64,000 nucleotides of DNA from an uncultured SAR116 cluster alpha proteobacterium (GCA_902539895.1 CACBMD010000004.1:1-64000), one strand, 5' to 3'. Positions 12,201-34,433 are shown, numbered from the stretch's first letter. Numbers and translations are program-made. Notes: generated by a model not told the origin, from the letters alone.

Positions 12201-13504
12201 TTTTTATGTTGAGCAAGAATTATGTCATTTAATTCTGGTAATATAAAATTTGTAGATTTTAGATAAATTTTTTCTTTATTGATTCTAATTTTTGTATGGT
12301 AGTTTTGTGTTAATATGTGATCCTTGTTTGACCAACAAGCATATATAATATTAGAAACATTTTTTGCTCTCAGAATAATATATAATTTTACCAAATTTTC
12401 AGGTTTGACTCTGTTTACAAATCTTATCCAGCATCCAGGCCCTAAATCTTTTTGATCTGCACCTGATCCTTTTAAAACCGAATGAATATAGAATTTTCTG
12501 TTGAGAAAATTTTTATCAACCTGAATTTGTTCTGAGACTATTGCTCCATCAAGAAATAAAAACTCACGGTCTAAGATTTTTTTTTGTTTCTGGAAGTGAA
12601 TAGTGTAAGATTTTATTCTATTTTCATTTTGAATTTTCAAAACTGTTGGGCTTTTAGATCCTCTCAAAATAAAATTTAGATCACTTGAATCATCAATCTT
12701 ATATCCATTGGCTTCTATTAATCGCGAACCCATTTCAATATATTTATTATTATGTTTAAGAAAAGCTATTATATTGCTCTCTACCTCATCTATGTCTTTA
12801 GCAAATCTAATGTTCATAATAGGTGGAGAGGGATCTTTCTTTTCTTTTAGTAATGTTAAGATTTTACAGGCAATATATATTGGCACTGCAAATCCAAGCC
12901 CTTCAGAATTTCTTTTGTATTTAGATTTATTTATTCCAACAACACGCCCATTTTTAAGATTAATTAAAGGGCCTCCGGAATTACCAGGATTAATAGCAGC
13001 GTCAGTTTGAATAACTTTTCTTTCATTTAAAACTAATTCTTGGGAAATTATTCCACGAGATGCAGAAAAAGAGAGACCATTTGGATGACCAAAGGCAGCT
13101 ACTTCTGTACCTGGTTTTGCAAGAAAGTAACAATCAAGATCAGCTTCAAGTGCATAATTTGGAATATCATCTTGATTTATCTTAAGAATAGCAAGATCAT
13201 ATTCAGGATCAATATAAACTGGTTTTACACTTTTATATGAACCATTTTTAAATTTTAACTTGAGTTTTGTGTCTCCTCTTCCTGAAACATGAGCATTTGT
13301 TAAAAAATATCCCTTTTCTTTATCAATCAGGAATCCTGCACCCATCCAACTACCAGCACCTTTAGTCTCAGCAAAAGGATATTGTGATTTTGCTTTTATT
13401 TTTACAGTATAATTTGATGCATTAAGTAAAAAATTCTCACTATAGGCAAGAGATTTAAAAATGATTAGGGTCAATATATTAAAAATTATTATTTTTATTT
13501 TCAT
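12197..13504 (-). CDS. exported trypsin-like serine protease (DegP-type S1C fold)
   Basis: 435 residues. A signal peptide (IKIIIFNILTLIIFKSLAYS) precedes a chymotrypsin-fold domain with a complete triad: His72 in FLTNAHVSG, Asp103 in YDLAILKI and Ser176 in NPGNSGGPLI. The C-terminal half (about 230-435) has weak PDZ-like features (MGSRLIEANGYKIDDSSDLNFIL) and a second similar segment (SVLKGSGADQKDLGPGCWIRFVNRVKPENL), as in DegP/HtrA proteins. It would act in the periplasm. It is convergent with the Sel1-caspase gene (4-bp overlap), suggesting a long-standing pairing rather than a transcript shared with it. Confidence 0.88.
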   Translation of the reverse strand: MKIKIIIFNILTLIIFKSLAYSENFLLNASNYTVKIKAKSQYPFAETKGAGSWMGAGFLIDKEKGYFLTNAHVSGRGDTKLKLKFKNGSYKSVKPVYIDPEYDLAILKINQDDIPNYALEADLDCYFLAKPGTEVAAFGHPNGLSFSASRGIISQELVLNERKVIQTDAAINPGNSGGPLINLKNGRVVGINKSKYKRNSEGLGFAVPIYIACKILTLLKEKKDPSPPIMNIRFAKDIDEVESNIIAFLKHNNKYIEMGSRLIEANGYKIDDSSDLNFILRGSKSPTVLKIQNENRIKSYTIHFQKQKKILDREFLFLDGAIVSEQIQVDKNFLNRKFYIHSVLKGSGADQKDLGPGCWIRFVNRVKPENLVKLYIILRAKNVSNIIYACWSNKDHILTQNYHTKIRINKEKIYLKSTNFILPELNDIILAQHKN

Positions 13505-13573: not shown

Positions 13574-15250
13574 TTATTTTGAACATGGATTTGACTGAGA
13601 GGTCATCTTGGCAAGTCTTGCAAAACTTTCTTTGGGTAACTTGTTTAATAACTTAATAAGAACATCATCACCTGAAGAAAGTATGTCATTTATAAGAGAA
13701 TCTCCCATAGCTTCACCAAATTTGACCTCCTCTTCCTTGAGATCCATTCCACGAATTATAGCTCCGTCTCTGAGTGCATTTTTTAACTCAACAATGAATT
13801 CCTGTTTTAATTTTGAACCACATTCATCACATTCATAATTGTTAAGATCATTTAAATGGCCACAATGATGGCATGATTTTAATTGATTTGATATTTCAAA
13901 GAATTCATGCCCGCACTCGTCACATTTTTGAGCTCCAAGAGAACATTCAGTTTCACAAGTTGGACATACCTTATGTGTAGGTCTTTTTACAGAACTCCTG
14001 AATTTAGCTGGCATTTCACTCTCAACTCTAAGTGCATATTTCTCGAACTGAGGAAGTGATGGCATAACAACATAAGCACTTGTCATATCGTTTTCACCAA
14101 TGGTTCTTACTACACGACCAATTGCCTGCCTGAAAAAAAGCTCAGTCTGTGCAGATGGTAGATAAATCAGAACTCTAAGTCTTTTTATATCCACACCTTC
14201 AGACACCATTGCAACTGATACCATCCATCGCTTGTTAGATCTTCTGAAGGAGGCAATTCTTTGTTCTGCATTAGCAATATTACTGTGAACCATGGCAGGT
14301 TTTTCTCCTTCCAGTAATTCTATGATATTGCTCATGTGCTCTGCTGTTGCAATGTTTGGAGCTATTATAAGACCTCCTGCGTCAGGCATTTGAAGTCTTG
14401 TCTCATTTAGTTTATTTATGCCCCATTTAATCATAGTTCCCTGATATGAATCTACATCAGGTGTTATCTGATCACTTTTGAACTGTCTTGTACAAGCAAG
14501 TTTATAAAAATCAAGAGCCTGTTGAAGGCCAGTTATTTTAAGCTTGTCCTTAGTTAAATCATTTTTGGATTGACTGTTTACATTTGCAAGAGTTTCTCCA
14601 GCAAGCGAAACTGAAAAGTTTCCCTCATGTCTGTGAAATGTAACTGGCCTGCAATATCCTAAATCTACAGCTTTACCATAACTTAGGGTATATGTACCTT
14701 CTACAGGCTGATTTATTCTACCATTACTGTCATAGGCCATCCACACAGTTTCTTGACCATCTGATCTAATCGGTGTTCCAGTCAGTATTAATACATATTT
14801 AGCATTTGAAAATGAACTGTTTGCACCGTCACCCCATGCAGCTTTGACCGCTGCATGATGATGTTCATCACAAATTACTAGTGTCCGTGATGATGAACAT
14901 ACAGAATGAAAAGCTTCTTGCAGATTCTGTATAGCTGCCCAGGTTGCACACAAATCCTCTCCGTAGCCATCTATATCATCTGATGAGGTCACTTTCATCA
15001 TATGTCTTCCAGTAACAAACTCAAAATCATTACCCCATTGCCTAACAATTTCTGAACGTGGAGCTATTACAATAACGCGATCAATCATATTATTTTTGAT
15101 TAATTCTCTTGCTATTACAGAAGCACATATGGTTTTCCCTGAACCAGGGGCTGCATTTATAACAAAGTGTTTATTATTTTCATTGTTATACCAATCAATA
15201 GCTTGCCTTTGAGCATCTGCCTGCCAAGGTCTTAATTTAATTTCTTTCAT
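13574..15250 (-). CDS. RadD-like superfamily 2 helicase with zinc ribbons
   Basis: 558 residues. Motif I is APGSGKT (34-40), motif II is DEHH (128-131), motif III is LTGTP, and motif VI is RQAIGRVVRT, so the ATPase core is complete. The C-terminal part has two zinc-ribbon clusters (CPTCETEC with CDECGHEF; CHHCGHLN with CDECGSK), as in RadD (YejH) and phage SSL2-like helicases. It would unwind or remodel DNA, perhaps in repair or element replication. Its start codon overlaps the stop of the HNH gene (TAATG), so translation is coupled. It is the last gene of a four-gene operon driven by promoter P6 through the structured leader. Confidence 0.85.
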   Translation of the reverse strand: MKEIKLRPWQADAQRQAIDWYNNENNKHFVINAAPGSGKTICASVIARELIKNNMIDRVIVIAPRSEIVRQWGNDFEFVTGRHMMKVTSSDDIDGYGEDLCATWAAIQNLQEAFHSVCSSSRTLVICDEHHHAAVKAAWGDGANSSFSNAKYVLILTGTPIRSDGQETVWMAYDSNGRINQPVEGTYTLSYGKAVDLGYCRPVTFHRHEGNFSVSLAGETLANVNSQSKNDLTKDKLKITGLQQALDFYKLACTRQFKSDQITPDVDSYQGTMIKWGINKLNETRLQMPDAGGLIIAPNIATAEHMSNIIELLEGEKPAMVHSNIANAEQRIASFRRSNKRWMVSVAMVSEGVDIKRLRVLIYLPSAQTELFFRQAIGRVVRTIGENDMTSAYVVMPSLPQFEKYALRVESEMPAKFRSSVKRPTHKVCPTCETECSLGAQKCDECGHEFFEISNQLKSCHHCGHLNDLNNYECDECGSKLKQEFIVELKNALRDGAIIRGMDLKEEEVKFGEAMGDSLINDILSSGDDVLIKLLNKLPKESFARLAKMTSQSNPCSK

Positions 15251-15447
15251 TAATTTGCGCCTTTCTTAAGGTTGCATGTAGGGCATAAAGCCATTCCATT
15301 TTTAAGAATTGTTTTTCCGGATTTGGAAAATGGAATTTTGTGATCAGCATGGAAGTTTTTTTTCAGAACATTTCCACAAATGCCACAAAGGTTTCCAGAT
15401 AAAAGTCTGAGAGTTATTCTTTGTTTTCTATTGAACAAGCGCCTCAT
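15250..15447 (-). CDS. small HNH endonuclease-like protein
   Basis: A 65-residue HNH domain: CGICGN and CPTCNLKKG are the two zinc-binding CxxC pairs, and FHADHKIPFSKSGKT supplies the catalytic AxHKxP core. It overlaps both neighbours by a few bases. Such stand-alone HNH proteins nick or cut DNA, often with a helicase partner; here the partner is the RadD-like helicase directly downstream. The small size is normal for phage-type HNH proteins. Confidence 0.85.
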   Translation of the reverse strand: MRRLFNRKQRITLRLLSGNLCGICGNVLKKNFHADHKIPFSKSGKTILKNGMALCPTCNLKKGAN

Positions 15448-15728
15448 TTACTTATCCAATATTCACTCACAAGAATATCTCTAACAGGAAGTTCTTTTGG
15501 TGGAATGACAGTACAATGTTCATTCATCCTTTTTAAAATGCGTGCCATTGGAACTTTTGTTGATTTAATCATATAGCCATCGCGTTTCATTTGACTTATG
15601 TCAGCGGTAAGGTTTTGAACACCGAAGAGTATCTGAGATTCCAGACGTGAAATTCTACGCCCATTTTCCATTTCAATTAGTAAGGCCATATGGCCATTAA
15701 ATTTTTCTGTTTTATGCATTAATTCCAT
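15444..15728 (-). CDS. small uncharacterised protein, possible helix-turn-helix
   Basis: A 94-residue basic protein. The middle (RISRLESQILFGVQNLTADISQMKRDGYMIKSTKV) looks like a winged-helix segment of the kind used by phage DNA-binding proteins. It overlaps the HNH gene by 4 bp (ATGA) and the upstream gene by 10 bp, so it belongs to the same tightly packed operon. Two ATG codons (15728 and 15719) are possible starts. Family not identified. Confidence 0.6.
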   Translation of the reverse strand: MELMHKTEKFNGHMALLIEMENGRRISRLESQILFGVQNLTADISQMKRDGYMIKSTKVPMARILKRMNEHCTVIPPKELPVRDILVSEYWISK

Positions 15729-16060: not shown

Positions 16061-16106
16061 TATCTTTCTCCTTAATTTTTGAAAAAGATGATAAATTTAT
16101 CTTTTT

Positions 16107-16283
16107 AATTGACCTGCTCGCTTTCAGGCATTGTGTTGCCACCATCAGCTTTTGATTTTAGTCTGGTCGAACATTTTACCCTGTTCGATAGTCATCTTTG
16201 TCCCGTCCGCTAGGTTCAATTGAACCATCAAAGCGCAGTCCGTTAGGTCTGGGTAAGATGCGGGCCTTAAACTCATCATCTTG
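16107..16283 (-). ncRNA. candidate structured leader RNA, copy A
   Basis: A 177-nt sequence with near 50% GC in a 30% GC background, repeated without gaps and with 7 mismatches at 29848-30024 in opposite orientation. It is read from promoter P6 towards the helicase operon and ends 46 bp before its first gene. Possible stems include a UCGAACA/UGUUCGA hairpin, the palindrome GGUUCAAUUGAACC, CAUCUU with AAGAUG enclosing it, and CCUG/CAGG near the 3' end. Between copies, the change in the first hairpin is in the loop and that in the last stem keeps a U-G pair. An alternative reading as a short peptide is weakened by a stop in the other copy. Flanking sequence 16284-16369 holds only the promoter. 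Confidence 0.5.
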
Positions 16284-16290
16284 ACTTGTT

Positions 16291-16327
16291 ATAAGTAATA
16301 AGATTGGCCGGCCATTTTTCTTGGAAG
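16291..16327 (-). promoter_or_regulatory. promoter-like motif P6 (helicase operon)
   Basis: On the minus strand TTCCAAGAA is followed by CTTATTAC, which starts exactly 22 nt after the first C of CCAAG, as in the five other copies. The spacer uniquely contains the perfect palindrome TGGCCGGCCA. The expected start of transcription, about 16285, leads directly into the structured leader. Confidence 0.7.
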
Positions 16328-16369
16328 ATAGATAATTAATTATTTAAGTAATTGATTTCTATAAATAAA

Positions 16370-19300
16370 TTAATTAATAGTGGATTCAATATTCACATAA
16401 GGCGCCCAGTAAAATGGATGGAGCCATTGTAAATTTTTGCTTTTTCTTAATTCATGTTGAGCTTTTTGAAGACTTTGTGATCGTGAAAAACCATCATTTT
16501 TAAATTTTTTCACAGCTGAAATCGAAAAATTTTTAGCAGAATTAGTTTCTATAGGCCATAAAGTAGACATTACACCATCAGATCCAGCCGAAAGAAATGA
16601 ACTTGCAAGACCTGCAAAAGGATTTTGATCTGAATCTTTTGTGTTAAATGTATTGCAAGCTGTTAATAAAACCCAATCTGCTTCAAGGTTAAGAGAGATA
16701 ATCTCACTAGATGATAGATAACCATCTTCAGTGTTTTGACTTCCAAAATTTGAGAGAGCAAGTCCTGGTTCGGATACTGGAGATAATTCAGAGGTCATAA
16801 ATCCATGAGTTGCAAAAACAATGATATTAAATTTATCTAATAATTGCTTTTTAAAAATCTCCTCACTAGCATTTTCTCCAATTAGAATTTTTCTGTCATT
16901 TTTTTTAAAAAGATCAGATATCATTTTTATCTCTTCTCTGGTTGAGGGAAGAGGTACAAGTTTTTCAAGATTAATATTTTTACCTTCATATGTAAGTTTT
17001 GATGACTTGAATTTCGGATCTCCTATACCCAAGAATTTGAATTTTTTTGTTAATCTGTTTTTCTTATTTTTAAACTTTATAATAGAAGGTACATAAGTAA
17101 CGTTATATACGTGATTCAACCACAGTATACTATCAAGTCCTGATGATTTTTCTGTTTGACTATTTTGCTTTGATATACCTCTTGAGGCCATATAAATAGG
17201 TGGATTTAATACGGCATTAGTTTCTTTTAATATAAGAGCTCCAAAGGGCAACTTATAAAAAATTCCATCTGCTGATATTCTTATTTCATCAATATTATTT
17301 TTAAAAATCGATAAAGGAAGTATTTTTTGTTGCAGTTTAAAAACTCTGTTCAAACTATAATTTGTTAACTGACCATTTATAGCCTTGTTATAATCGATAA
17401 TTTCATTATTGATTGATTTTAAATCATCAATGAGTTTGATTTTTACATCGTTTTTTGAAATTCCGTAAATTAATAATTTGTTAATGTCTTTTATTTCAAA
17501 AAAGTTTAAGTAAACCTGATTAGACGATAGGTTATTTTGAATTTCTTCTACTAAAGGTTTATTAAAATCAAAAATTTTATCTAAATATTCTTGGTTTGAT
17601 ATTTCATAATATTTTTCACTTAATATTGACTCATCTATAAATTTCACAATGTCTTTACTTATGTCTTTATTATCATTTAAATTATTGGATGATAGGAGTA
17701 ATAATCTTTTTCTTCTTTCAAAATACTCTCTATATTTGTGTTTATTCTCTTTTTTAATTATTGCTTGATAATTAATATAAGACTCTGAATTAGAAAATTT
17801 GCTTAAAATCAACAATCTTAATAAATTTGAATTTTTAATTTTGGTTTTATCTTTTTCAAATAAATATTCGTATATAATAAGTTGTGTTAATAAAGATATA
17901 TTTTTGTTTTTCTTGTTGCCTTTAAAAAATGATATTAGGTTTTTCATTATCTTATTTTGATCGTCTAATCCTCTATAAGATCGATAGCTGTCAGAAAATG
18001 AGTTTGTTTTGGCATCAGTCAAAAGTTGAATTGTTAACAATTTAATAAGATTATTTTTCAGATCAAAAAAAGATTGATAATCAATACCTGATGCATCATC
18101 ACTTAAATTCATTAATAAGTTTTCACTTAATTTAAGTATAAATTTTCTATTTGCTATGTCCTGAATTAATTCATCGTCATTTGCAATTTTGGATACTTCT
18201 TCAACATATATCTTGTTGAATTCAGAGAATTTAATTTTTTCTGATAGCGTCAATATAATTAGCATTTTCATTCGAGAGCTAAAAATAATGGATTCATCGT
18301 ACGCAAGTTTATTGATTAACTTAAAATCAATAAAATTATTTTTGTTTTTAACTAAATTTTCAACCACTGACATGAAGTATTGCTGAAAAATATATGGTAT
18401 CGCCATCTGTTTGGAATAGTTAATTAATTCTGGTAAAAATGGAGAACAATGATCTAACATTATTTGTTTCGCAAGATCTCCATTACCTTGCTGAACATAG
18501 TGTTGACTTAGTGATAGGGTGGTTTGGCAGACACCGACAATAGATGATATTTTAAAATAATTTGAAATTTCAGGTCTGTTTTTTAAATTAATTTTTTCTA
18601 GATTATTTTTTTTAATTTTTAGTTTATTTTTGTAGAATAAAATTAGATCATCGAAATTATTATTTTTTTTAAGATAATTTTCATAAATATTATCAAGAGT
18701 TTTTAAATTCACACTGTCATTCTTTTCTTTTTTATATATTTCAAGTGCGTATTTAACATATCCATCTTTTAATTGCGTGTCGGTTTCTGAAGCAATGTTA
18801 ATTAATTTATCAAGAAATTTTAAGTGCAATTCAGAGCCTTCACCTTGAGTTGAATATGCCTTTCTTTCCAATATCTTTATAATTTCGTACCAACTTTTAG
18901 GATTAAATAATCTCTGTGGATCAAGTTGATAAATCTCATTAAGATATTCTAATATATAAATCTGATTGAATTCAGAGACATTATTTTTCAGAAAATTATT
19001 AATCTTGTTATCATAAAAAATGTAACTTTCATTGAAGTTAGTAGTTTTTAATAATTTTTCATTATCTCTTAAAATACTCTCAAGTGCTAAATCCTTATAT
19101 TGATTAAAAATATTTTTATTTTGTAATAATATTTTTATCTCTTCATCAGTAAGATAATTTGAAAGTGCCATGAATTCTTGGGAAGTGAAACCTCTAAAAA
19201 TAGAGTTTAAACGTGTATTAAAATGAGCAAATATTTTTATTTTATCATCGATCAATATATGTTTGCTTTTAATAATATTTTTAAAAACTCGTCCCCAAAT

Positions 19301-19885
19301 CAACTTTGCTTTTGTCTTATCAAAAACATGCAAACTTAAAATGGAATTTGAAAATAGAAACTCGTCTTTAAAAAGTTTTAGCAGATTTTTATTCTGGCAA
19401 TCATCTTCTTTGACCAAACATAAAAAAATCTTACCATTTTCTGTATTTGAAAATGTGGTAACTATTTTGGTTTCGATGTTAAAAAATTTTGTTTCATTTA
19501 AAATTAGAAATCTAAGAATGTCCTGTTCACTAAAGTTTTGACTTTTGATTTTTTTGCTTAAGAATTGCATAAATTTATTGATGTCAACCTTCTGATTTCT
19601 CCATACCAAAAATTCAGAAGCAAGAATGTTTAAAGTTGAGGCATCTTGATGAAATTTTTTTGGAACTTTAGAAAAATCATATTTTCTTAAGAAATTTTGA
19701 AAATCTTTAATACTACTTGCTTTTTCAAGGTCTGAATTAGATTTATCTATGAATTCATTTAGCGTGTAATTTTTGAAATTATAATCTTCGGCTTTTAAAG
19801 AAATATTTAAAAATGAAACAATTATTATAAAAAATATAATATATTTTTTCAAAACTACATATCCTTGGTTTTTTCTGTTTTCCAA
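16370..19885 (-). CDS. exported CHAT-domain caspase-like protein (CHAT-1)
   Basis: 1171 residues. An N-terminal membrane/signal segment (YIIFFIIIVSFLNISLKAE) sends the rest to the periplasm. Residues 40-850 are helical and low in clear motifs, likely degenerate TPR-like helices. The C-terminal CHAT domain (about 870-1171) has His1027 in VFATHGF, Cys1077 in LLTACNTF, the GLASSFLSAGSDGVMSTLW core and the closing HPFYWAPY, so the caspase dyad is intact. The gene overlaps the membrane-protein gene by 31 bp, and a TTG at 19852 would give a more typical signal peptide start (KKYIIFF). It is the third gene of the sigma operon. A protease role is inferred from the dyad; the substrate is unknown, the neighbouring membrane protein being the obvious candidate. 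Confidence 0.85.
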   Translation of the reverse strand: MENRKNQGYVVLKKYIIFFIIIVSFLNISLKAEDYNFKNYTLNEFIDKSNSDLEKASSIKDFQNFLRKYDFSKVPKKFHQDASTLNILASEFLVWRNQKVDINKFMQFLSKKIKSQNFSEQDILRFLILNETKFFNIETKIVTTFSNTENGKIFLCLVKEDDCQNKNLLKLFKDEFLFSNSILSLHVFDKTKAKLIWGRVFKNIIKSKHILIDDKIKIFAHFNTRLNSIFRGFTSQEFMALSNYLTDEEIKILLQNKNIFNQYKDLALESILRDNEKLLKTTNFNESYIFYDNKINNFLKNNVSEFNQIYILEYLNEIYQLDPQRLFNPKSWYEIIKILERKAYSTQGEGSELHLKFLDKLINIASETDTQLKDGYVKYALEIYKKEKNDSVNLKTLDNIYENYLKKNNNFDDLILFYKNKLKIKKNNLEKINLKNRPEISNYFKISSIVGVCQTTLSLSQHYVQQGNGDLAKQIMLDHCSPFLPELINYSKQMAIPYIFQQYFMSVVENLVKNKNNFIDFKLINKLAYDESIIFSSRMKMLIILTLSEKIKFSEFNKIYVEEVSKIANDDELIQDIANRKFILKLSENLLMNLSDDASGIDYQSFFDLKNNLIKLLTIQLLTDAKTNSFSDSYRSYRGLDDQNKIMKNLISFFKGNKKNKNISLLTQLIIYEYLFEKDKTKIKNSNLLRLLILSKFSNSESYINYQAIIKKENKHKYREYFERRKRLLLLSSNNLNDNKDISKDIVKFIDESILSEKYYEISNQEYLDKIFDFNKPLVEEIQNNLSSNQVYLNFFEIKDINKLLIYGISKNDVKIKLIDDLKSINNEIIDYNKAINGQLTNYSLNRVFKLQQKILPLSIFKNNIDEIRISADGIFYKLPFGALILKETNAVLNPPIYMASRGISKQNSQTEKSSGLDSILWLNHVYNVTYVPSIIKFKNKKNRLTKKFKFLGIGDPKFKSSKLTYEGKNINLEKLVPLPSTREEIKMISDLFKKNDRKILIGENASEEIFKKQLLDKFNIIVFATHGFMTSELSPVSEPGLALSNFGSQNTEDGYLSSSEIISLNLEADWVLLTACNTFNTKDSDQNPFAGLASSFLSAGSDGVMSTLWPIETNSAKNFSISAVKKFKNDGFSRSQSLQKAQHELRKSKNLQWLHPFYWAPYVNIESTIN

Positions 19886-21795
19886 TCACCATCTTCATCA
19901 TATCCCATTTGGTCAATGAAGCCATCGTAGTTTGTATCAATCAACCATTCGTAACTTATAAAATTTTCTTCAATTTTTGGATAAACAAGAATATCACCTA
20001 TAGAGTCTTCATTAGTATCAAATACGTAATACTCAACATTTTTTTCATCATTAATGATTGCTATTATTTCAGCCTTATTGTCTCCGTCAAAATCTATAAA
20101 AATATTATTAATATCATTTTTATCTTCATCTATGTTTTTCCATGATTTTATATTTGGTGCATATAGTGTTTTTTTAAAAACATTAGAATAAAGTTTATAA
20201 AGCCCGTTACGTTCTAATTCTTGAACATTTTTTTTCTTTTCCCACTCCATATTCATAAATTTTTTATCAAAAATTTCTAGGGTTGTAGGCTGATAATTCA
20301 AAAGACCAATTGGGTATTTTTCTTCACTTTTTTCATCTTTGAAGAAGATAATTATTCTCTCTTTTCTCCAAGGTGGGTTTATTGAATATGTTTCTCCAAT
20401 TTTTGATCTAGTGTTAGCTTTATAATCCGCTATTAAAAAATTTTCTGTTTCGCATGGAGTGTCTTCTTCGATTTTCTCTAGTATTCTTAAACCTTCATTA
20501 GATTTAAGTACATTATCTATATAAATTGATCCATTATTATTATAGTCAAAATAAAACTCAATTTCATTACCTGAAAGTAATTTGTCGTTATCTGAAAATT
20601 TAAAAGTTTTTTTGGTTTTAGGATTTGTAACCATAATGTGAAATTGTTTATTAAATGCTTTTGGGTCTGACTTTAATTTTGGAAGAGTACAGTCTTTAAA
20701 ATTTAAAACTTTTCTTTGACTAGCAACTAAATTATTTTCTCCTCTCGATATCATAGCATTAGATCCCGGAAAAGTATTCTCAACACTTTCTAAATAAATT
20801 TCAGAGTCTGAAGATAAACTGGATAATTGAATTATTGCAGGATTTGATGCAACAATCGTACTGTTTGTTCCATATAATAATCCAGCCCCAATAAACAGGG
20901 GGGTGATTGCTGCAAAACTTAAATCCAAAGGTCTGAAAGTTATAAAGTCTTTTATTTTAGAAAAAAGACTTCTGTCTTTTGAAATAAATTCGGCCAGAAT
21001 TTCTTCATTTTTTTTTGAATTTTCTTCAATTTTAAGCCAATTTTCAAGAATTGAAGCGTCAGGTCCTTCATAATGATTTTTTAGACTTAATGAATATGAA
21101 TTAAATTTTTTCTGTATTTCAATTTTTTCTCTGAGCTCGCCATCATATTCAAGTATTAAATTAAATTTTTCTGCTTCTTTCATATCCAAATAACCATCTG
21201 TGAAAGCAAGTATTTTTTCACTATCAATAGACTTGGCAAAGGATACTAAACTAGTAAGCTTTTCAATTTCACTTTGATTTTTTCTAATTTTAGATCTTAC
21301 AAAAGCTAATTCACCATTTAACTGATTTTCATTTCTGATGTCTGGTTTGATCAGAAAATTCTGATTGGTGTTATTTGAGGTTTGTTTTTTAATAAAATCT
21401 TCAAGACCTTCATCAAGTCTCTTATTTAATTCAAAACCTTTATCAATGGACTCCTCAAGAAGATTAATAAAACTAATTGCTGTAGAACCATATATGCTTT
21501 CACCATTATCTTTTGATTTAATCAAACTTTCTATAAAATAATTATTTTTAAAATTGTCACCGTTAGTTTCATGCCATGATAGAAATTTTTCAAGATCCCC
21601 AATCGTAACATTATCAATTTTAAAAATAGCTTTCTCTTCTTCAATTTTTTCTTGCTGTTCTCTAATTAAAAATCTTTCTTGTTCATAGAAACTTAAATCT
21701 TCTAAAAGTTGATCTTTTTTTAAACTTAATTCGTCTAACTCTAATTGATGGCTATCTATTAAATCCCTAATTATTTTAAAATGTTGTTCAGCCAT
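19855..21795 (-). CDS. single-pass membrane protein with cytoplasmic coiled coil, possible anti-sigma/sensor
   Basis: 646 residues. The first 285 are charged and rich in coiled coil (LDELSLKKDQLLEDLSFYEQ and following). One membrane segment lies at about 291-309 (LSFAAITPLFIGAGLLYG), with basic residues before it, so the N-terminal half should be cytoplasmic and the rest periplasmic. The C-terminus carries Ca-binding-like loops: FDGDNKAE, DTNEDSIGD, DTNYDGFID and DEDGDWK. Its start overlaps the stop of the sigma gene by one base, and its end overlaps the CHAT-1 gene. This order (sigma, membrane protein, protease) is what one expects of a sigma factor held by a membrane anti-sigma factor, but no known anti-sigma motif is visible, so the role is inferred. 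Confidence 0.75.
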   Translation of the reverse strand: MAEQHFKIIRDLIDSHQLELDELSLKKDQLLEDLSFYEQERFLIREQQEKIEEEKAIFKIDNVTIGDLEKFLSWHETNGDNFKNNYFIESLIKSKDNGESIYGSTAISFINLLEESIDKGFELNKRLDEGLEDFIKKQTSNNTNQNFLIKPDIRNENQLNGELAFVRSKIRKNQSEIEKLTSLVSFAKSIDSEKILAFTDGYLDMKEAEKFNLILEYDGELREKIEIQKKFNSYSLSLKNHYEGPDASILENWLKIEENSKKNEEILAEFISKDRSLFSKIKDFITFRPLDLSFAAITPLFIGAGLLYGTNSTIVASNPAIIQLSSLSSDSEIYLESVENTFPGSNAMISRGENNLVASQRKVLNFKDCTLPKLKSDPKAFNKQFHIMVTNPKTKKTFKFSDNDKLLSGNEIEFYFDYNNNGSIYIDNVLKSNEGLRILEKIEEDTPCETENFLIADYKANTRSKIGETYSINPPWRKERIIIFFKDEKSEEKYPIGLLNYQPTTLEIFDKKFMNMEWEKKKNVQELERNGLYKLYSNVFKKTLYAPNIKSWKNIDEDKNDINNIFIDFDGDNKAEIIAIINDEKNVEYYVFDTNEDSIGDILVYPKIEENFISYEWLIDTNYDGFIDQMGYDEDGDWKTEKTKDM

Positions 21796-22733
21796 CAGAC
21801 ATTCACCCTAGTTTTTCCTTCGATGCAATTCATAAACGCTTCTCTAATTTGAATAGCAAGGTCGCCTACAGTTCCGGCTGCCATACCGAGTATTTCTGCA
21901 ATTTTTTCAGTTGTAGGTCTTTGTTGGTTAGTTATATCTTGATCAGGATGCAGGCTAAGATCCAAAATTGCTTTTTCTCTTTCAGTAAATTGCTTCTTGC
22001 AATCATCAATTCTCATCTTAAGTATTGTTATATCTTCTTCAGTATTTTCTGAAAGAACTTTTGATAAATTTTCATTTTTTAAAACCGAGGGTTTTGATTT
22101 TATTCCTACTCTTACATTTTTTCCACCTATGCCAATTTCACTAATTTCATGATCAAACCAAACTCTTATTGAAAATGTATGTTCATCAATTATTTCGTCG
22201 ATTACAATTTCATTGCCCCATTTATTTCTTAATCTATCTTTGGTTCTTTCACTGAGCTCGTTATCATTAAATCCTGTCAAAATTACAGCAGAACCCAAAT
22301 TTGCTTTATGAGGATTTTTTGTAGATATGAAAATTTTATTTTTGTCATTATTTTCTGTTCTGATTGAATTTTCTTTCAAGTGTAAAGGTTTCTTAATCTC
22401 AAATGGTTTGAAATCAAAAAATTGCTCATCTTTATCACTTAAGTTATAGACAGAGCGTTCTAGAGCAGCTTCATCACGTTCTTTTTTTTCAATATCATCG
22501 TGAAATATCCAATTTATTCTTTTTTTCACATAATTAGTTAAATTCTTACTTCGATCAATTTTTTCTGGGTTCTCCACAATTTTAAAACCAGCTCTTACAA
22601 ATAAATCTTCGGCATCATCGCGTGTTATATTAAATCTTGCTTGAGCATAATATATATAACTCTTGCGATCTCGCCAAATTTCTCTAGCGAGACTATTTTG
22701 GTTATGCTTCTGGGATTTGTTTGCTTCTGCCAT
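21795..22733 (-). CDS. sigma-70-family-like factor with inserted middle domain
   Basis: About 312 residues from the ATG at 22733 (a TTG at 22742 is less likely). Residues 28-95 resemble region 2 of extracytoplasmic-type sigma factors: YYAQARFNITRDDAEDLFV, NLTNYVKKRINWIFHDDI. Residues 240-308 resemble region 4: FTEREKAILDLSL, then a helix-turn-helix TEKIAEILGM..GTVGDLAIQIREAF. Between them sits an insert of about 100 residues with strands (KIFISTKNPH, AVILTGFND, IDEHTFSIRVWFD), longer than the linker of normal ECF factors. Promoter P5 of the six-copy family lies 25 bp upstream, pointing to autoregulation. It could also be a transcription factor without core-polymerase binding. Confidence 0.7.
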   Translation of the reverse strand: MAEANKSQKHNQNSLAREIWRDRKSYIYYAQARFNITRDDAEDLFVRAGFKIVENPEKIDRSKNLTNYVKKRINWIFHDDIEKKERDEAALERSVYNLSDKDEQFFDFKPFEIKKPLHLKENSIRTENNDKNKIFISTKNPHKANLGSAVILTGFNDNELSERTKDRLRNKWGNEIVIDEIIDEHTFSIRVWFDHEISEIGIGGKNVRVGIKSKPSVLKNENLSKVLSENTEEDITILKMRIDDCKKQFTEREKAILDLSLHPDQDITNQQRPTTEKIAEILGMAAGTVGDLAIQIREAFMNCIEGKTRVNV

Positions 22734-22756
22734 ATTATTCAATTAGTTTTTGTACG

Positions 22757-22792
22757 AATATTATAAGAACAATAAAACAAAATTCTTGGAAA
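22757..22792 (-). promoter_or_regulatory. promoter-like motif P5 (sigma operon)
   Basis: On the minus strand TTTTCCAAGAA and CTTATAAT, again with 22 nt between the first C of CCAAG and the first C of the second box. It is back to back with P1: the two CCAAGAA boxes form an inverted repeat (TTCTTGGAAAA, then TTTTCCAAGAA) around 22783-22818. It sits 25 bp before the sigma gene. Confidence 0.6.
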
Positions 22793-22808
22793 ATAAAAAA
22801 ATAATTTT

Positions 22809-22846
22809 TTTCCAAGAAAAATCTCCTTCCATTCTTATTACATATG
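22809..22846 (+). promoter_or_regulatory. promoter-like motif P1
   Basis: TTCCAAGAA (22810-) and CTTATTAC (22834-22841), 22 nt apart by the same measure, followed by the DUF4258-like gene at 22869. Divergent from P5. Confidence 0.7.
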
Positions 22847-22868
22847 AATGAAAAAAAAGGAGAGAAAA

Positions 22869-23150
22869 ATGCAGACATTAAATTTGACAAATCACGCAAA
22901 ACACAGAATCCAACAAAGAGGTATTACTGGTGATGTTGTCCAATTCATCATGGATCAGGCTGATAAGGTTGAATATTCCCGAGATGGAGCAAATGCAATA
23001 TTTGTATCAAGGAAGAGAATTAAAAAGCTAATTCAAAAGAAAGTTGTAAAACCGGCTCTTGCAGAAAAGGCAAATGGTGTAGTGCTTATTGAAAATAGTG
23101 GAGACGTGCTTACTGTTTTCCATCAAACAAGATCTCGGTTAAAGCACTAA
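22869..23150 (+). CDS. DUF4258-like small protein
   Basis: A 93-residue protein from the ATG at 22869, which has AAAAGGAGAG just upstream; an ATG at 22848 lies at the expected transcription start and is unlikely. The pattern LTNHAKHRIQQRGITGDVVQFIMDQADKVEYSR followed by a basic middle and a GDVLTVFHQTR ending is that of DUF4258, a small basic RNase-like (RelE/BECR-type) family sometimes acting as toxins. No antitoxin gene is next to it. It lies alone between P1 and P2 and is the first plus-strand member of the inferred regulon. Confidence 0.7.
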   Translation: MQTLNLTNHAKHRIQQRGITGDVVQFIMDQADKVEYSRDGANAIFVSRKRIKKLIQKKVVKPALAEKANGVVLIENSGDVLTVFHQTRSRLKH

Positions 23151-23176
23151 GACCATAAAATAAAAAAAGAGAAATT

Positions 23177-23214
23177 TTTCCAAGAAAAATATTCTCCCAA
23201 TCTTATTACATAAT
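23177..23214 (+). promoter_or_regulatory. promoter-like motif P2
   Basis: TTTTTCCAAGAA with the C at 23180, and CTTATTAC at 23202-23209: the same 22-nt step. It precedes the DUF2130-like and cyclotransferase genes by about 50 bp. Confidence 0.7.
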
Positions 23215-23262
23215 GAACATGCCAATTATTTGGCCTTTAACCTAAATTTCAAAGGGGAAAAA

Positions 23263-24429
23263 ATGCCTACACAATCAAACGAAATTGAATGCCCTCATTG
23301 TAAAAAAACTATTGATATTTCTTTATTCGCAAAAGGAGAACTTGCTCAAAAACTTGAAAGTGAGATTGAAAAAAAACTTACAAGTCAAATTGAACAAAAA
23401 CTCAGGGAAACCAATAAAGAAAATCTTGAGACATCAAAAGCAATGTTAAGAGAGCAGCTTAAAAATGAATTTCAAACAACAGTAGATCAGCTTAACAGTG
23501 AAGTAAAAGGTAATCTTAAGATGATTTCCGAACTGGAATTAAGTAAAGCCAAGCTTGAGATTGAAAAATTAAAAAAAGAAAATCAATTAAAGAAAATTGA
23601 AGAAGATAAAAATTTGGCAGTTTCAATTGCTGTAACTGAAGCTTTAAAAACAGAAAAGGCAAATAATGACAATGTTATTTCCGAAAAAGATTTAACTATT
23701 CAAAGTCTCCAGAATTCCATTGCTGAACTAGAAAGGCAGAGCCGACAGGGATCACAGCAAATGCAAGGTGAGGCGGGGGAAATTCTTATTGAAAAAATTC
23801 TTGAAAGAGAATTTCCCAGCGATAATGTCGAAGAAATTAAAAGAGGACAGGCTGGAGCGGATAGTGTGCTTAGAGTAAGGGGACCATCCGGAGCTGTTTC
23901 TGGATCAATTTATTTTGAGGCAAAACGAACAACATCATTTTCCAAACCATGGATTGAGAAACTAAAAAAAGATGTTGCAAAACAGAATGCCAGCGTAGGT
24001 GTTTTAGTAACTGAAACAATGCCTGTTGATAAAGAAAAACCTCATTTGGTTGATGGTATATGGGTTTGTCATTTCAGTGATTTTGTAACAGTCACAAAAA
24101 TTCTGAGACATGGTTTGGTAAATATTGCCAAAATCAGAAATGCAGAACTGGTTAGAACTGACAGAGCCCAGGTTATGTTTGATTACCTGATAAGTAAAAG
24201 GTTTGCAGATACTATGACAGCCATGCTTTCACCCATTTTTAAAATGTCAGAACAACTTCAAAAGGAAAGAACTGCCATTACAAGACAATGGGCAATCAGA
24301 GAAAAGATGATTGATGAGGTGATTTCAAATGCCAACATTTTTCATGGGCACCTTGTTTCTGTATCTGATAACGGAATGCCTGCAATTGAAGGCCTTGCAT
24401 CAATTAATGAATTAGATCAATTAAATTAA
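23263..24429 (+). CDS. DUF2130-like coiled-coil protein with nuclease-like C-terminus
   Basis: 388 residues from the ATG at 23263 (AAAGGGGAAAA upstream). It opens with a zinc ribbon half (IECPHCKKTIDISLF), then a long coiled coil (residues 30-165, ELAQKLESEIEKKL and onward), then a domain with GEAGEILIEKILEREFP, RGQAGADSVLRVRG and YFEAKRT, where E(x)n D(x)n ExK resembles a restriction-endonuclease-fold active site. This is the layout of DUF2130 proteins, which are thought to be DNA-acting nucleases. It is followed 10 bp later by the cyclotransferase-like gene, so both share promoter P2. Confidence 0.75.
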   Translation: MPTQSNEIECPHCKKTIDISLFAKGELAQKLESEIEKKLTSQIEQKLRETNKENLETSKAMLREQLKNEFQTTVDQLNSEVKGNLKMISELELSKAKLEIEKLKKENQLKKIEEDKNLAVSIAVTEALKTEKANNDNVISEKDLTIQSLQNSIAELERQSRQGSQQMQGEAGEILIEKILEREFPSDNVEEIKRGQAGADSVLRVRGPSGAVSGSIYFEAKRTTSFSKPWIEKLKKDVAKQNASVGVLVTETMPVDKEKPHLVDGIWVCHFSDFVTVTKILRHGLVNIAKIRNAELVRTDRAQVMFDYLISKRFADTMTAMLSPIFKMSEQLQKERTAITRQWAIREKMIDEVISNANIFHGHLVSVSDNGMPAIEGLASINELDQLN

Positions 24430-24439
24430 GGAAAAAATA

Positions 24440-25402: not shown

Positions 25403-25411
25403 AAAAATAAA

Positions 25412-25449
25412 ATTCCAAGAAAAGTAAACTCTCAATCTTATTACTTGTG
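25412..25449 (+). promoter_or_regulatory. promoter-like motif P3
   Basis: ATTCCAAGAA (C at 25415) and CTTATTAC at 25437-25444, with the constant 22-nt step. It begins 9 bp after the stop codon of the preceding gene and leads to the gene at 25472. Confidence 0.7.
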
Positions 25450-25471
25450 AATATAACAATGGAGCTGTTTA

Positions 25472-26350
25472 ATGCAGATATTTAAAAATACATTTAAAGA
25501 AATTAATTTTCAGGAAATGATAAATATAAACAACCTGAAAATCGTACCAGTACAAATAGATAGTTTAAAACACGATGACCGTATTGTACCTTTTGACGAA
25601 CTGTATGACAAAGGATTGGCGAAGGCTGAAGAAGTTTCTGATGAAGGGATAGTTTCACAGGTAAAAATTATAAACGATAGTGAAAATCTTTTATTCATTA
25701 CAGACGGCGAAGCTATTATAGGTGCCAAACAAAACAGAATTGCAGAAAGATCTGTTATAATTCAGGATCAATCTGATGCGGTGGTGCCCGTATATTGTGT
25801 TGAGCGAGGTCGTTGGGGATATCGAGGGAGTGAGAATGCTCGTTTTTCCAAAAGTGATTTTTCACTTTCACCAAGAACCAGAGATAAGAAGGCTGAATTT
25901 TTAAAAAACTCTGATGGACGTGACACTCAAAGTATGGTGTGGCAGGATATTGACGAATTTTCAGAAAAGGTTAATTACTCTTCTTCAACCTCTGATCTTG
26001 GCGATATATTAAAATCAAGAAAAAATGATAATTTATTCAAAAAAATCGAAAAGGTTAATTCAAACGGTTACATTGTTTTCGGTACAGGAAGACCATTTAT
26101 TGAAGTATTTTCTGACAATGAAATATGCAAGAAAAATTTAAAGAAATCCATTAATGTTTGGGCTGCAGATGAAAACACTGTTGCAGAAACATTTGAAAAA
26201 CCTGAGATTTATTTTGAAAAATTTAATAATTCTGAGTGGGATATGGATTTATCAATTGGGCTTGAAAATGCTTTTATGTCCAAAGGTGATAATAATGGTC
26301 GTGCCATTTTTCACGATGATAAGTTTGTTCATTCATATATGTATTTCTAG
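25472..26350 (+). CDS. ARPP-1-like protein
   Basis: 292 residues, soluble. The core VKIINDSENLLFITDGEAIIGAKQNRIAERSVII with VPVYCVERGRWGYRG is what I recall of the ARPP-1 domain (PF20208), a family noted for association with ADP-ribosylglycohydrolases and rhodanese/phosphatase proteins in conflict systems. The catalytic role is not known. It has its own promoter P3 and ends before a good terminator at 26468. A DraG-like protein is encoded in the same island at 7914, consistent with that theme. Family assignment is from motif memory. Confidence 0.7.
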   Translation: MQIFKNTFKEINFQEMININNLKIVPVQIDSLKHDDRIVPFDELYDKGLAKAEEVSDEGIVSQVKIINDSENLLFITDGEAIIGAKQNRIAERSVIIQDQSDAVVPVYCVERGRWGYRGSENARFSKSDFSLSPRTRDKKAEFLKNSDGRDTQSMVWQDIDEFSEKVNYSSSTSDLGDILKSRKNDNLFKKIEKVNSNGYIVFGTGRPFIEVFSDNEICKKNLKKSINVWAADENTVAETFEKPEIYFEKFNNSEWDMDLSIGLENAFMSKGDNNGRAIFHDDKFVHSYMYF

Positions 26351-26467
26351 AGGTAATAACATTGTTTATTTTTTGGATGCTAGGAAGACTAATATATGGA
26401 AAGGATTTTGACAAACATTGGAATAATGCCAATAAAATCCGGCGACGTAGAAGGCGATAAACATTTT

Positions 26468-26495
26468 AGGAATGGTACTTTTTAGTATCATTCCT
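26468..26495 (+). terminator. intrinsic terminator after the ARPP-1-like gene
   Basis: AGGAATGGTAC and GTATCATTCCT form an 11-bp stem with one G-U pair and a TTTTTA loop, about 118 bp past the stop codon. The rest of 26351-26615 is AT-rich without a gene or a copy of the regulon promoter. Confidence 0.65.
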
Positions 26496-26615
26496 TACAC
26501 TTAAAAATTCTATAATTATAAGAAATTTATTTAAAATATTTGAATATATTAAATTTGATTTGATGATATATTTAAATATATTGAGCGTATTCTGTTTATA
26601 ATCTAATGTTTATTA

Positions 26616-29603
26616 ATGAAATTTATTTTTAAACTATTATTTATTTCATTTTTAATTTTAACTTCTTTAAACGCATTCTCATCAACAATTATAAATAAAG
26701 AAATAAATTTTTCTATCATTGAAAAAGATAATTGTAATAGGATTGATTTGTTAAAAGAACAACCAATAATTATAATTACTGCTATTTGTTCGCCAAAGGA
26801 AAATAAATATTTCTTTAATTTATGGAAATCGACAGAAAAAATTTTTGTATCTTCCAGAATTCACTCAAAAAAAATAAATACAGATAATTTTCCAATAAGT
26901 TTTAAATTTAAAGATTTCTTATCATCTAAGCAGTTTGTTTTAAGAAAAAAAACATCAAAAAGAAAATTCCCTAAAATTATAATTTATGACCAAGATCTTT
27001 TTTTAAAAATTACAAAATTTTATGAGCAAAATAAAAATTTTGATATTTTATTAGCAACTTCTAAAACTTACAATTTATTAACATTTGATTTTAACAAAAA
27101 CACAAATGAGCCTTTGAGTTATGATGTAAATCAAATATCTTCTTTTAAAGAAATACAAAAACAAAATTTTGCAAACTCATCTTATTTTCATACATTTAAT
27201 TTAGACATCATTGATGACAGTGCTTGGTATTGTAAATTAAAAAAACCAGCAATAGACACCTATAAATTTTTAGATGCTTGGGGTAATGACGGCTCTAATA
27301 ATAATTTTAAAAATTGTTGGTATGAATTTATAGTTAAAAAAAAGACATTAAAACATGTTAATAAGATTGAGGAGTTTACTTGGTATTTAATAAGGCAGGT
27401 TAATTTAGATTATGATAAAATTAATACTAATAGACACAAAATATTTAATTCTTTGAAAACAGTTGAAAAAAAAACTTTGAGAAATTTTATTTCTTATAAG
27501 CTTATACAGTTTGCTACAAATAAAAAATTTTCAACTCAATCAATTTATAAAATTCTAAACATTTATTTTCAAAATAATATTGTTGATTTGTATATGGCTT
27601 CTTTGGCAATGAATTGTTCATCATTTTCAAAAAAAAATATTACAAATGCTCAAGAGAGAATTGAATATTATTCAAAAAAAATGTCGTTAGATGAACGTGC
27701 TTATGCTCGGTTTCATTTTTATTTAAATAGAAAAGAAAATTTTCCAAATATTGGTTATGCTGCAGGTCCTTATGGTATTATTGGAAAGTTCAATAACTAT
27801 GATTATTGTGTTAATTTAGGCACAAACATAGATTATTTTTGGTCACAGAATTCAAAATATAATGAAAAAACAATCAAAGATAAGTCGATCCAAAGTATTA
27901 ATTATCTTCATATTATTGAAATAAATAAGGAATTAGCAAAAGAAGATATATCACTTGAACAGAAAACTATATTATTAGACTTATTTTGGAAAAAATTACA
28001 ATTTTTTCAGAAAGATAAGAAAAGCTTCATAACCTTTAAACTTTGGTATTTCCACTCCGCTTCGTTAAATTATTTTAATAAAATCATAGAAAATGATAAA
28101 AAAAATTTTTTTCCGTCAAAGAACTCAACACTCGAAGAATTATTTACTAGTGGTACTTTAGTTCTCCCTGCTAATATTAAAAGAAATCAAATTGGTATTA
28201 CTAGTCAGATTTACATATCTAACTTGATGAAAAATGTAGATTTTTTTAGGCAAAATAAACCTTCTTATTATGGATTAGACGATATAAAATTTAATAATTT
28301 TAATTCAAACTTGGCAATTAATTCATACAAAAAATTAAAAGAATTAGATGAAACTATAGAGCTTTTAGATAAAGATGCTTTTGAAATAATAACAAATAAA
28401 GCTTTGAGTCTTAAGGATGTTAGAAAAGGAATTAAAAATAATGAGGCCATTATTTTTATTTCTCAGAATTCTATAAGCCAAAATTATACCACTTATACAA
28501 TTACTAATAAAAAATATAAAATCTCTATTCATAAAAATTCTTTAATTTTGAAAAAATGCCTTAAAGAATTCGAAACTAATATTATTAATCAAAATTATCA
28601 GGAAAATAAATGTAATGAATTATATAGAGATATTTTCTTTTCTAATGAGAAAATTCTTGGAAGTGAAGTTACAAATTTAAAATATATTGTTCAAGGCGAA
28701 ATTAAAAAAATCCCTCCGAGTTTGATTTATAAAAATATTGGAACACAAAAAAATACAAGTAACACCATTAATCAAAATAAGAATTATGAAAATAAAAGAG
28801 GAATTTCCTTAGACAACTTAAATAAAAATTCAAATGAGAGACTTTTATTGGATTGGTATTGGAAAGAATACAATTTTATCTTATATCCATCTTTTGGCTT
28901 ATTGAAAGTTGCAGATTTTTATCAAAAATATAAAACAAAAAATAATGATTTCTATTTAGGTGTAGCTGTTTCAAAACTTCCATCTTCAAACAAAAACAGT
29001 TTTAACATTTTTAGTAAATTGTCACTACAAGATATTCCTCAAACAAAAATAGAGGTTGAAAATAATTCAAAAATTTGGGGCCTTAATAAATCAAAAATAC
29101 TTTTAAATGAAGATGCAAACATTATTAATTTAAGATCATATTTTAAAGATGTACATCCAAAAATTCTTTCAATAGGTACTCATACAATCAAAAGGATCCA
29201 AAAAAATAAAAGTAAGGAAACATCTTTACTTTTATATCCAAATTCTATTGAAGCTTTAGACGAAAGTTTTTTAACTCCTAAAAAAATAGAGAAAAATAAA
29301 TTATCTGCGGATTTAGTTATTTTGAGTTCTTGTAAAACTATGGAAACGGAAAATAATTTTTCGCAAAAAAGTAATTTAGCATCATCTTTTTTAATCAATG
29401 GATCAAAATCAATATTAGTTACTTATTGGCAGATAGAAGATCTTTCAACAAGAATATTTATGAATACATTTTTTAAAACAATTTCGAACCAAAAGACAAA
29501 ATACAGTGATGCACTAAAGATAAGCATACAAAAGCTAATAGATAAAGGATATAAACATCCTTTTTATTGGGCTCCATTTGCAATAATGGGGCATGCTAAT
29601 TAA
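26616..29603 (+). CDS. second exported CHAT-domain caspase-like protein (CHAT-2)
   Basis: 995 residues with a signal peptide (FIFKLLFISFLILTSLNAFSS). The long middle is helical and asparagine/lysine-rich without clear repeats. The C-terminal CHAT domain has His856 in SIGTHTI and Cys906 in ILSSCKTM, separated by exactly the same 50 residues as in CHAT-1, followed by NLASSFLINGSKSILVTYW and the shared ending HPFYWAPF. Both dyad residues are present, so a periplasmic protease is expected. Unlike other genes here it has no copy of the regulon promoter in front. Outside the CHAT domain I see no obvious similarity to CHAT-1. Confidence 0.85.
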   Translation: MKFIFKLLFISFLILTSLNAFSSTIINKEINFSIIEKDNCNRIDLLKEQPIIIITAICSPKENKYFFNLWKSTEKIFVSSRIHSKKINTDNFPISFKFKDFLSSKQFVLRKKTSKRKFPKIIIYDQDLFLKITKFYEQNKNFDILLATSKTYNLLTFDFNKNTNEPLSYDVNQISSFKEIQKQNFANSSYFHTFNLDIIDDSAWYCKLKKPAIDTYKFLDAWGNDGSNNNFKNCWYEFIVKKKTLKHVNKIEEFTWYLIRQVNLDYDKINTNRHKIFNSLKTVEKKTLRNFISYKLIQFATNKKFSTQSIYKILNIYFQNNIVDLYMASLAMNCSSFSKKNITNAQERIEYYSKKMSLDERAYARFHFYLNRKENFPNIGYAAGPYGIIGKFNNYDYCVNLGTNIDYFWSQNSKYNEKTIKDKSIQSINYLHIIEINKELAKEDISLEQKTILLDLFWKKLQFFQKDKKSFITFKLWYFHSASLNYFNKIIENDKKNFFPSKNSTLEELFTSGTLVLPANIKRNQIGITSQIYISNLMKNVDFFRQNKPSYYGLDDIKFNNFNSNLAINSYKKLKELDETIELLDKDAFEIITNKALSLKDVRKGIKNNEAIIFISQNSISQNYTTYTITNKKYKISIHKNSLILKKCLKEFETNIINQNYQENKCNELYRDIFFSNEKILGSEVTNLKYIVQGEIKKIPPSLIYKNIGTQKNTSNTINQNKNYENKRGISLDNLNKNSNERLLLDWYWKEYNFILYPSFGLLKVADFYQKYKTKNNDFYLGVAVSKLPSSNKNSFNIFSKLSLQDIPQTKIEVENNSKIWGLNKSKILLNEDANIINLRSYFKDVHPKILSIGTHTIKRIQKNKSKETSLLLYPNSIEALDESFLTPKKIEKNKLSADLVILSSCKTMETENNFSQKSNLASSFLINGSKSILVTYWQIEDLSTRIFMNTFFKTISNQKTKYSDALKISIQKLIDKGYKHPFYWAPFAIMGHAN

Positions 29604-29659
29604 TACTTAAGGTATTCTTAAATATTCCCTTATTTATGCATGTAATATCTAAAATATCT

Positions 29660-29680
29660 TTAGAAAATTATCTTTTCTAA
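29660..29680 (+). terminator. AT-rich terminator-like hairpin after CHAT-2
   Basis: TTAGAAAA and TTTTCTAA make a perfect 8-bp stem with a 5-base loop, followed within 10 bases by a T-run just upstream of P4. Weak because the stem is nearly all A-T. Confidence 0.4.
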
Positions 29681-29694
29681 AAAAAATAATTTTT

Positions 29695-29732
29695 TTTCCA
29701 AGAAAATATTCTTCCCAATCTTATTACTTATG
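29695..29732 (+). promoter_or_regulatory. promoter-like motif P4
   Basis: TTTTTCCAAGAA (C at 29698) and CTTATTAC at 29720-29727, with the constant 22-nt step. It leads through a short broken reading frame and leader copy B into the genes from 30071 on. Confidence 0.7.
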
Positions 29733-30024: not shown

Positions 30025-30070
30025 TAAAACATAAATTCATCATCTCTTTTTTAATATATGGAGTAATTAA

Positions 30071-34420: not shown

Positions 34421-34433
34421 GGAGATAAAAAGA

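Follow-up and report, generated by a model that had tools for sequence, protein, structure and literature searches.

What would an exported protease of the caspase clan be doing in one operon with a transcription factor? The question is raised by a 64,000-nucleotide stretch of DNA from an uncultured SAR116 cluster alphaproteobacterium (GCA_902539895.1, CACBMD010000004.1:1-64000), hereafter the window, whose parent assembly comprises 1.44 Mb in 71 contigs and is 69% complete. On the minus strand, three tightly packed genes encode a putative sigma factor of the sigma-70/extracytoplasmic function (ECF) type (P0003), a single-pass membrane protein (P0002) and a predicted exported CHAT protease of clan CD (P0001). 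We propose, with a probability of about 0.4, that the operon is an envelope-sensing switch in which P0002 acts as an anti-sigma factor holding P0003, and exported proteases trigger its release. The recurring combination of such genes suggests an undescribed route from cell-surface damage to gene response in ocean alphaproteobacteria.

Sigma-like factor, membrane protein and CHAT protease

P0003 (21795..22742, minus strand, 315 residues; likely start ATG 22733) aligns over residues 31–294 with the NCBIfam profile TIGR02937 (sigma70-ECF), scoring 39.4 bits (E=4.6e-10) against a curated cut-off of 42.9 bits. A single alignment bridges sigma2 and sigma4, which are separated by an insert of ~130 residues; scored as separate pieces, region 4 yields 25.4 bits and region 2 yields 13.8 bits. 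A sigma-70-like factor had been recognized here from the sequence, and the profile match agrees with it, though P0003 is predicted to be a divergent sigma-like protein and no textbook ECF factor.

The gene of P0002 (19855..21795, minus strand, 646 residues) lies directly downstream and overlaps the sigma gene by one base (TGATG at 21795). The protein has one hydrophobic segment near residues 290–310 (one Kyte–Doolittle peak, of 1.59 at position 290). The basic residues that precede this segment place the N-terminus in the cytoplasm, a prediction made from hydropathy and not with a topology predictor. The N-terminal half is charged, helical and heptad-periodic, and the C-terminal half carries DxDxDG calcium-type loops, in keeping with the original description of a single-pass membrane protein with a cytoplasmic coiled coil of 285 residues and a periplasmic half. 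P0002 is probably the membrane protein that holds the sigma factor P0003. A DUF4384-like domain was suspected in it, searched for and not found. Single-sequence AlphaFold models (predicted local distance difference test scores of 36.6 for P0003 and 34.6 for P0002) were too poor for use.

P0001 (16370..19885, minus strand, 1171 residues) matches the CHAT profile PF12770 with 139.8 bits against a curated cut-off of 24. His1027 and Cys1077 are both present, and their columns are invariant across 18 aligned homologues. As a start codon, TTG 19852, preceded by AAGGA, is favoured over TTG 19885; the resulting N-terminus, MKKYIIFFIIIVSFLNISLKA, reads as a signal peptide, as judged by eye and hydropathy instead of a dedicated predictor. 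The claim of an exported CHAT protein with an intact dyad was thereby borne out. The claim that all three genes overlap held for the sigma and membrane-protein genes; the start at 19852 leaves a 2-nt gap between the P0002 and P0001 genes, which probably abut rather than overlap, an overlap hinging on the TTG at 19885.

Viral, plasmid, genus and order collections contained no close relatives of P0003 or P0002, and for P0001 they returned generic CHAT matches, none of them close. P0001 was not found in 39 other genomes of the genus, nor P0003 in 60 relatives' genomes, indicating that the gene set is accessory.

Recurrence in marine lineages

Co-occurrence in other genomes had been set beforehand as a test of the sequence-only reading, and the combination was met again. 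In CHAT-led searches, four other lineages were found to combine an exported CHAT protein with an ECF sigma factor and an overlapping transmembrane (TM) anti-sigma-like protein: L077, the AG-893-E21 lineage (L179 and L205–L207), L204 and Pelagibacterales L212. Counted by lineage and with the window included, this makes five separate arrangements. L077, the second CHAT genome of the window's order and a different genus of the same family, encodes an ECF-like sigma factor and an overlapping single-TM protein; these are followed by a trypsin, with DxNxDG repeats, and a TPR-CHAT protein, both of them exported. L179, a marine single cell, came from a CHAT-profile scan of species genomes that was blind to sigma factors; it carries genes for a caspase, a CHAT protein and a trypsin with DxNxDG repeats, all three exported, as well as an ECF sigma gene overlapped by that of a TM anti-sigma-like protein. 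The order CHAT, sigma, TM, trypsin, with PrsW downstream, is common to L179, L205, L206 and L207, and the exported caspase gene is divergent wherever such a locus extends far enough. L205–L207, L204 and L212 came to light when the orders of L179 and L189 were searched for CHAT. All five genes (sigma, TM, trypsin, caspase and CHAT) lie on the same strand in L204; in L212 the sigma/TM pair is divergent from CHAT, next to helicase and HTH_39 genes that the window carries too.

Exported trypsins with DxNxDG repeats accompany most loci, and an exported caspase or PrsW several of them. PrsW-family intramembrane proteases (PF13367, 108 and 93 bits; NF033739, 145 bits) are encoded in the L179-type loci, L203, L208 and L189. 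RseA/DegS/RseP with sigmaE and RsiW/PrsW with SigW are systems of regulated membrane proteolysis, PrsW being the RsiW protease. Because trypsin and PrsW are found alongside, the related loci are more suggestive of membrane proteolysis of the RseA/DegS or RsiW/PrsW type.

CHAT genes are scarce in these groups, being found in 2/136 genomes of the window's order, 6/162 in the order of L179 and 6/397 sampled in that of L189. Read as description (four of the seven sigma loci belong to one lineage, the orders were chosen via L179 and L189, and the local profiles were partly seeded from these loci), a sigma gene lies ≤5 kb from CHAT at 7/13 marine loci versus 2/121 other proteobacterial CHAT loci, a trypsin gene is near CHAT at 10/13 versus 1/121, and a caspase gene at 5/13 versus 1/121. 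Both non-marine sigma cases are the same Pseudosulfitobacter SigJ neighbourhood, without an obvious link. In a 60-row CHAT tree, one side of 16 rows (support 100/99) comprises both window CHAT proteins and all marine ones except one, and 43 other rows are separate from it; the branches of the two window proteins are long and AT-rich, which leaves their placement inside the marine side unsure.

The sigma proteins of the recurring loci belong to differing subtypes. As judged from the proteins compared, what recurs is a series of different sigma/partner pairs repeatedly found with CHAT, and no single inherited three-gene operon. This pattern favours a working relation between envelope-facing CHAT, trypsin and caspase proteases and an ECF-type switch.

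The direction of that relation is where the main rival enters, as CHAT could equally be an output of the sigma operon. P0002 and P0003 would then form an ordinary envelope-stress pair released by a protease of the trypsin/RseP or PrsW type, and the sigma factor would express the exported CHAT protein, along with further genes of the island, as effectors acting in the periplasm or beyond it. The position of CHAT, last in the sigma operon and behind a sigma-facing promoter-like element, is in line with this, as are the divergent CHAT gene of L212 and the separate CHAT unit of L077; moreover, trypsin, by analogy with DegS and RseA the better candidate for site-1 cleavage, is commoner than sigma (10/13 versus 7/13). 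Taken alone, however, such an account leaves the CHAT/trypsin pairs of sigma-less loci unexplained, and published precedents tie CHAT or caspase-like proteases to a sigma factor (PMC10028731; EACC2-caspase-ECF, PMC8195603). We regard it as a serious but somewhat doubtful explanation.

Some further CHAT neighbourhoods were observed alongside. In the Pelagibacterales loci L189 (8036-12322) and L208 (10215-13871), two adjacent exported CHAT genes are accompanied by an exported trypsin and PrsW, with no sigma gene within reach. On a Pseudosulfitobacter plasmid (L004, 826-9071), caspase, trypsin, TPR and CHAT genes are consecutive, with no adjacent sigma operon.

Promoter-like element, proposed switch and island setting

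The operon lies in a mobile island marked by a tyrosine integrase gene (38487-39734, minus strand) beside tRNA-Ser(gct) (39859-39950); the window was found to contain no att repeat of the end of tRNA-Ser. Six perfect copies of a promoter-like element, TTCCAAGAA-N14-TCTTATNA, are present in the 1.44 Mb assembly, every one inside the island (16296-29726). All six are intergenic and oriented into island units, one toward the sigma operon and five toward others. No other copy with 0–1 mismatches exists in the assembly; the next best have two mismatches, and totals match the background given by the control pattern. The sigma-operon copy (22761..22791, minus strand) is a perfect match of the form TTCCAAGAA-N14-TCTTATAA and, read from 22791 to 22761, ends about 20–28 bases ahead of the sigma start. 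Boxes and spacing are constant and the spacer is variable, as expected for a promoter. The idea that the TTCTTGGAA repeats are terminal inverted repeats of a cassette was dropped, since their spacing is fixed and they point into genes, which fits a promoter-type element better.

An extended form, TTCCAAGAAAA-N8-CCAATCTTATTAC, occurs in uncultured marine phage contigs, where it lies between the small terminase gene and a divergent operon. About eight contigs carry it, mostly fragments; the element was noted at this position in L224, L234, L236, L237, L241, L243, L247 and L248. The large terminase of L247 shares 50–55% identity with its counterparts in the Pelagibacter phages HTVC027P and HTVC023P. 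The reader of the element may be P0003, the element then representing a promoter class common to phages, or a phage-linked factor.

If a factor from a phage or helper phage read the element, as a promoter or operator of phage type, infection would switch on the island genes, including the sigma operon, as in phage satellites and defence islands, and P0003 would have its targets elsewhere. The intergenic location of the extended element, ahead of an operon that runs away from the small terminase gene, the failure to detect a sigma gene in those contigs, the lack of further copies in the host assembly and the mobile nature of the island would all suit such a reader. We nevertheless consider it unlikely, as the sigma-operon copy retains the two boxes and their spacing without the extended sequence, and the extended form is limited to these few contigs, with no match found in cultured phages.

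In the envelope-sensing switch that we prefer, P0002 would be a membrane anti-sigma factor whose cytoplasmic half holds P0003, and its periplasmic half, with the calcium-type loops, would form the sensing and proteolytic side together with the exported CHAT protein. The exported trypsin and caspase encoded nearby might assist or precede CHAT. An envelope signal, for instance damage or phage attack, would set off exported proteolysis of P0002, and its intramembrane proteolysis would then release P0003. The freed factor would transcribe the operon that encodes it and, probably, further genes of the island via the TTCCAAGAA-N14-TCTTATNA element. Gene content and packing, the CHAT dyad, sequence-based export signals, recurrence and the island-restricted element are the observed basis of this scheme; we infer the binding of P0003 by P0002, the cleavage of P0002, the position of CHAT upstream and not downstream of the sigma factor, the reading of the element by P0003 and the identity of the signal.

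Several results weigh against the switch. The TIGR02937 score of P0003 is under the curated cut-off, and a profile of the relatives' sigma proteins misses P0003, with no closer kinship detected. P0002 has no family match and no recognizable anti-sigma domain in family profile searches; the relatives' anti-sigma profile misses it as well, and it shows no similarity to their anti-sigma proteins. For this reason the anti-sigma role of P0002 is drawn from its position and topology, the link between the window and its relatives is one of function and gene content, the sigma subtypes also differing, and we claim no shared ancestry of P0003 and P0002 with the relatives' sigma and anti-sigma proteins. 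PrsW was not found in the window. In several Pelagibacterales loci CHAT is paired with trypsin in the absence of sigma, and L189, L208, L209 and L210 combine the two with no sigma gene in view. Finally, no sigma gene was detected in the available sequence of the element-bearing phage contigs, and P0003 may therefore not be the reader of the element.

The window encodes further candidate members of a wider set. A predicted exported Sel1-repeat caspase (Peptidase_C14; 9267..12200, plus strand; PF00656, 76.6 bits) has homologues near CHAT in L179 and L203–L206. The adjacent gene encodes a predicted exported trypsin-like protease (12197..13504, minus strand; PF13365, 91 bits; weak PDZ, 19.3 bits), a candidate protease of the site-1 type. 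A second predicted exported CHAT protein (26616..29603, plus strand; PF12770, 91.7 bits) belongs to the same clade as P0001, with 28% identity over 282 residues in a protein comparison. A DEAD/ResIII helicase gene (13574..15250, minus strand) and a gene for an HTH_39-like small protein (15444..15728, minus strand) are common to the window and L212, with protein identities of 53.7% over 555 residues and 47.7% over 88 residues, respectively.

Three of the remaining element copies precede genes that are predicted to be co-regulated. The copy at 22810..22840 (plus strand) faces a gene for a DUF4258-like small protein (22848..23150, plus strand; weak DUF4258 match). That at 23178..23208 (plus strand) lies before a gene for a nuclease-like DUF2130 protein (23230..24429, plus strand; PF09903, 170 bits; weak Mrr_cat) and a gamma-glutamyl cyclotransferase-like gene, and that at 25413..25443 (plus strand) before a gene for an ARPP-1 domain protein (25472..26350, plus strand; PF20208, 176 bits). 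The last two copies follow the CHAT genes. One, after the second CHAT gene (29696..29726, plus strand), faces a ~190-bp repeat; the other, after the first (16296..16326, minus strand), faces the same repeat and the genes of a 113-residue protein, the HTH_39-like protein and the helicase. The two repeat copies (16098-16290, minus strand, and 29848-30041, plus strand) are 95% identical and lie downstream of the element behind each CHAT gene. A structured RNA was considered for the repeat and found unsupported, with no Rfam match and fold z-scores of -1.98, +0.51 and -0.84.

Elsewhere in the island, genes for an ADP-ribosylglycohydrolase, two gamma-glutamyl cyclotransferase-like proteins and ARPP-1 (7914-8612, 24440-25402, 25472-26350 and 30874-31263) hint at an ADP-ribose or NAD-linked function. 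A C5 DNA methylase gene, followed by genes without assigned function and DUF6339 (33425-37916), is possibly a restriction-modification cassette of the island.

That such a cassette-collecting island brought unrelated sigma-like, membrane-protein and CHAT genes together by chance is very unlikely. In favour of chance, the searched collections hold no close relative of P0003 or P0002, and the island is accessory, its CHAT gene missing from the 39 same-genus genomes; against it, the coupled genes sit behind one element and the same functions stand together in four other lineages with differing sigma subtypes and gene orders.

Comparison with known systems

If the switch exists, sigma control by proteolysis with a caspase-fold protease would reach beyond CRISPR systems and include the cell envelope. 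Such control would operate in bacteria that are among the most abundant in the sea and whose genomes are small, with few signalling systems known. A defined gene set and a promoter element make the idea testable in E. coli without culturing the host. A much bolder version, which we think improbable, is that ocean alphaproteobacteria, SAR11 relatives among them, possess a periplasmic cascade of caspase, trypsin and CHAT, free of CRISPR, which releases an ECF-type sigma factor via a membrane anti-sigma factor upon envelope attack, perhaps phage entry; here the response would be tied to a promoter class also found in marine phages, so infection itself could set it off.

The gene layout resembles the RseA/DegS/RseP and RsiW/PrsW systems in that a sigma gene is followed by an overlapping gene for a single-TM partner; the related loci also encode an exported trypsin and PrsW. 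In contrast to RseA and RsiW, P0002 is far larger and lacks a recognizable anti-sigma domain, and exported CHAT and caspase-type proteases are added.

The sequence-only reading had turned instead to the Craspase of type III-E CRISPR systems, composed of Cas7-11, Csx29, Csx30 and CASP-sigma (PMC10028731). In both loci a sigma-like ECF factor is encoded together with a CHAT protease and one further protein, and the Craspase protease relieves sigma inhibition; by analogy, a Craspase-like mechanism in which CHAT frees the sigma factor is plausible. However, the CHAT protease of Craspase is cytoplasmic, whereas P0001 is predicted to be exported and the third protein here spans the membrane. The CHAT profile finds the Csx29 structure chains at no better than E about 0.7, and a special link to Craspase is not supported. 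The claim that the locus is CRISPR-free agrees with the window, in which no CRISPR-like direct-repeat array is present, Cas7-11 not having been searched for in the rest of the 69% complete assembly. With these differences, the comparison with Craspase is useful for its logic only. Of the CRISPR-free membrane cascade first envisaged, the linkage extends beyond this genome and the layout of exported CHAT and membrane protein is conserved in kind, whereas kinship with Craspase is unsupported.

Outside CRISPR, EACC2-caspase-ECF neighbourhoods place a caspase-family protease beside an ECF sigma factor, and proteolytic signalling has been proposed for them (PMC8195603). The adjoining protease and ECF sigma genes are the shared feature; in the window, CHAT replaces the EACC2-caspase, the proteins are exported, and a membrane anti-sigma-like partner is present. 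The Calp system of type III CRISPR (CalpL/CalpT/CalpS) uses a Lon-SAVED protease with cyclic nucleotide input (PMC11417357). There, too, a protease works via a sigma-linked partner toward a transcriptional response, but Calp includes neither CHAT nor exported proteases. Searches of open-licence papers returned no description of a sigma/membrane-protein/exported-CHAT set, which accords with the initial impression that no such system had been described. What is new is a combination of known kinds, in which membrane signalling through ECF sigma and anti-sigma factors is joined with CHAT and caspase proteases.

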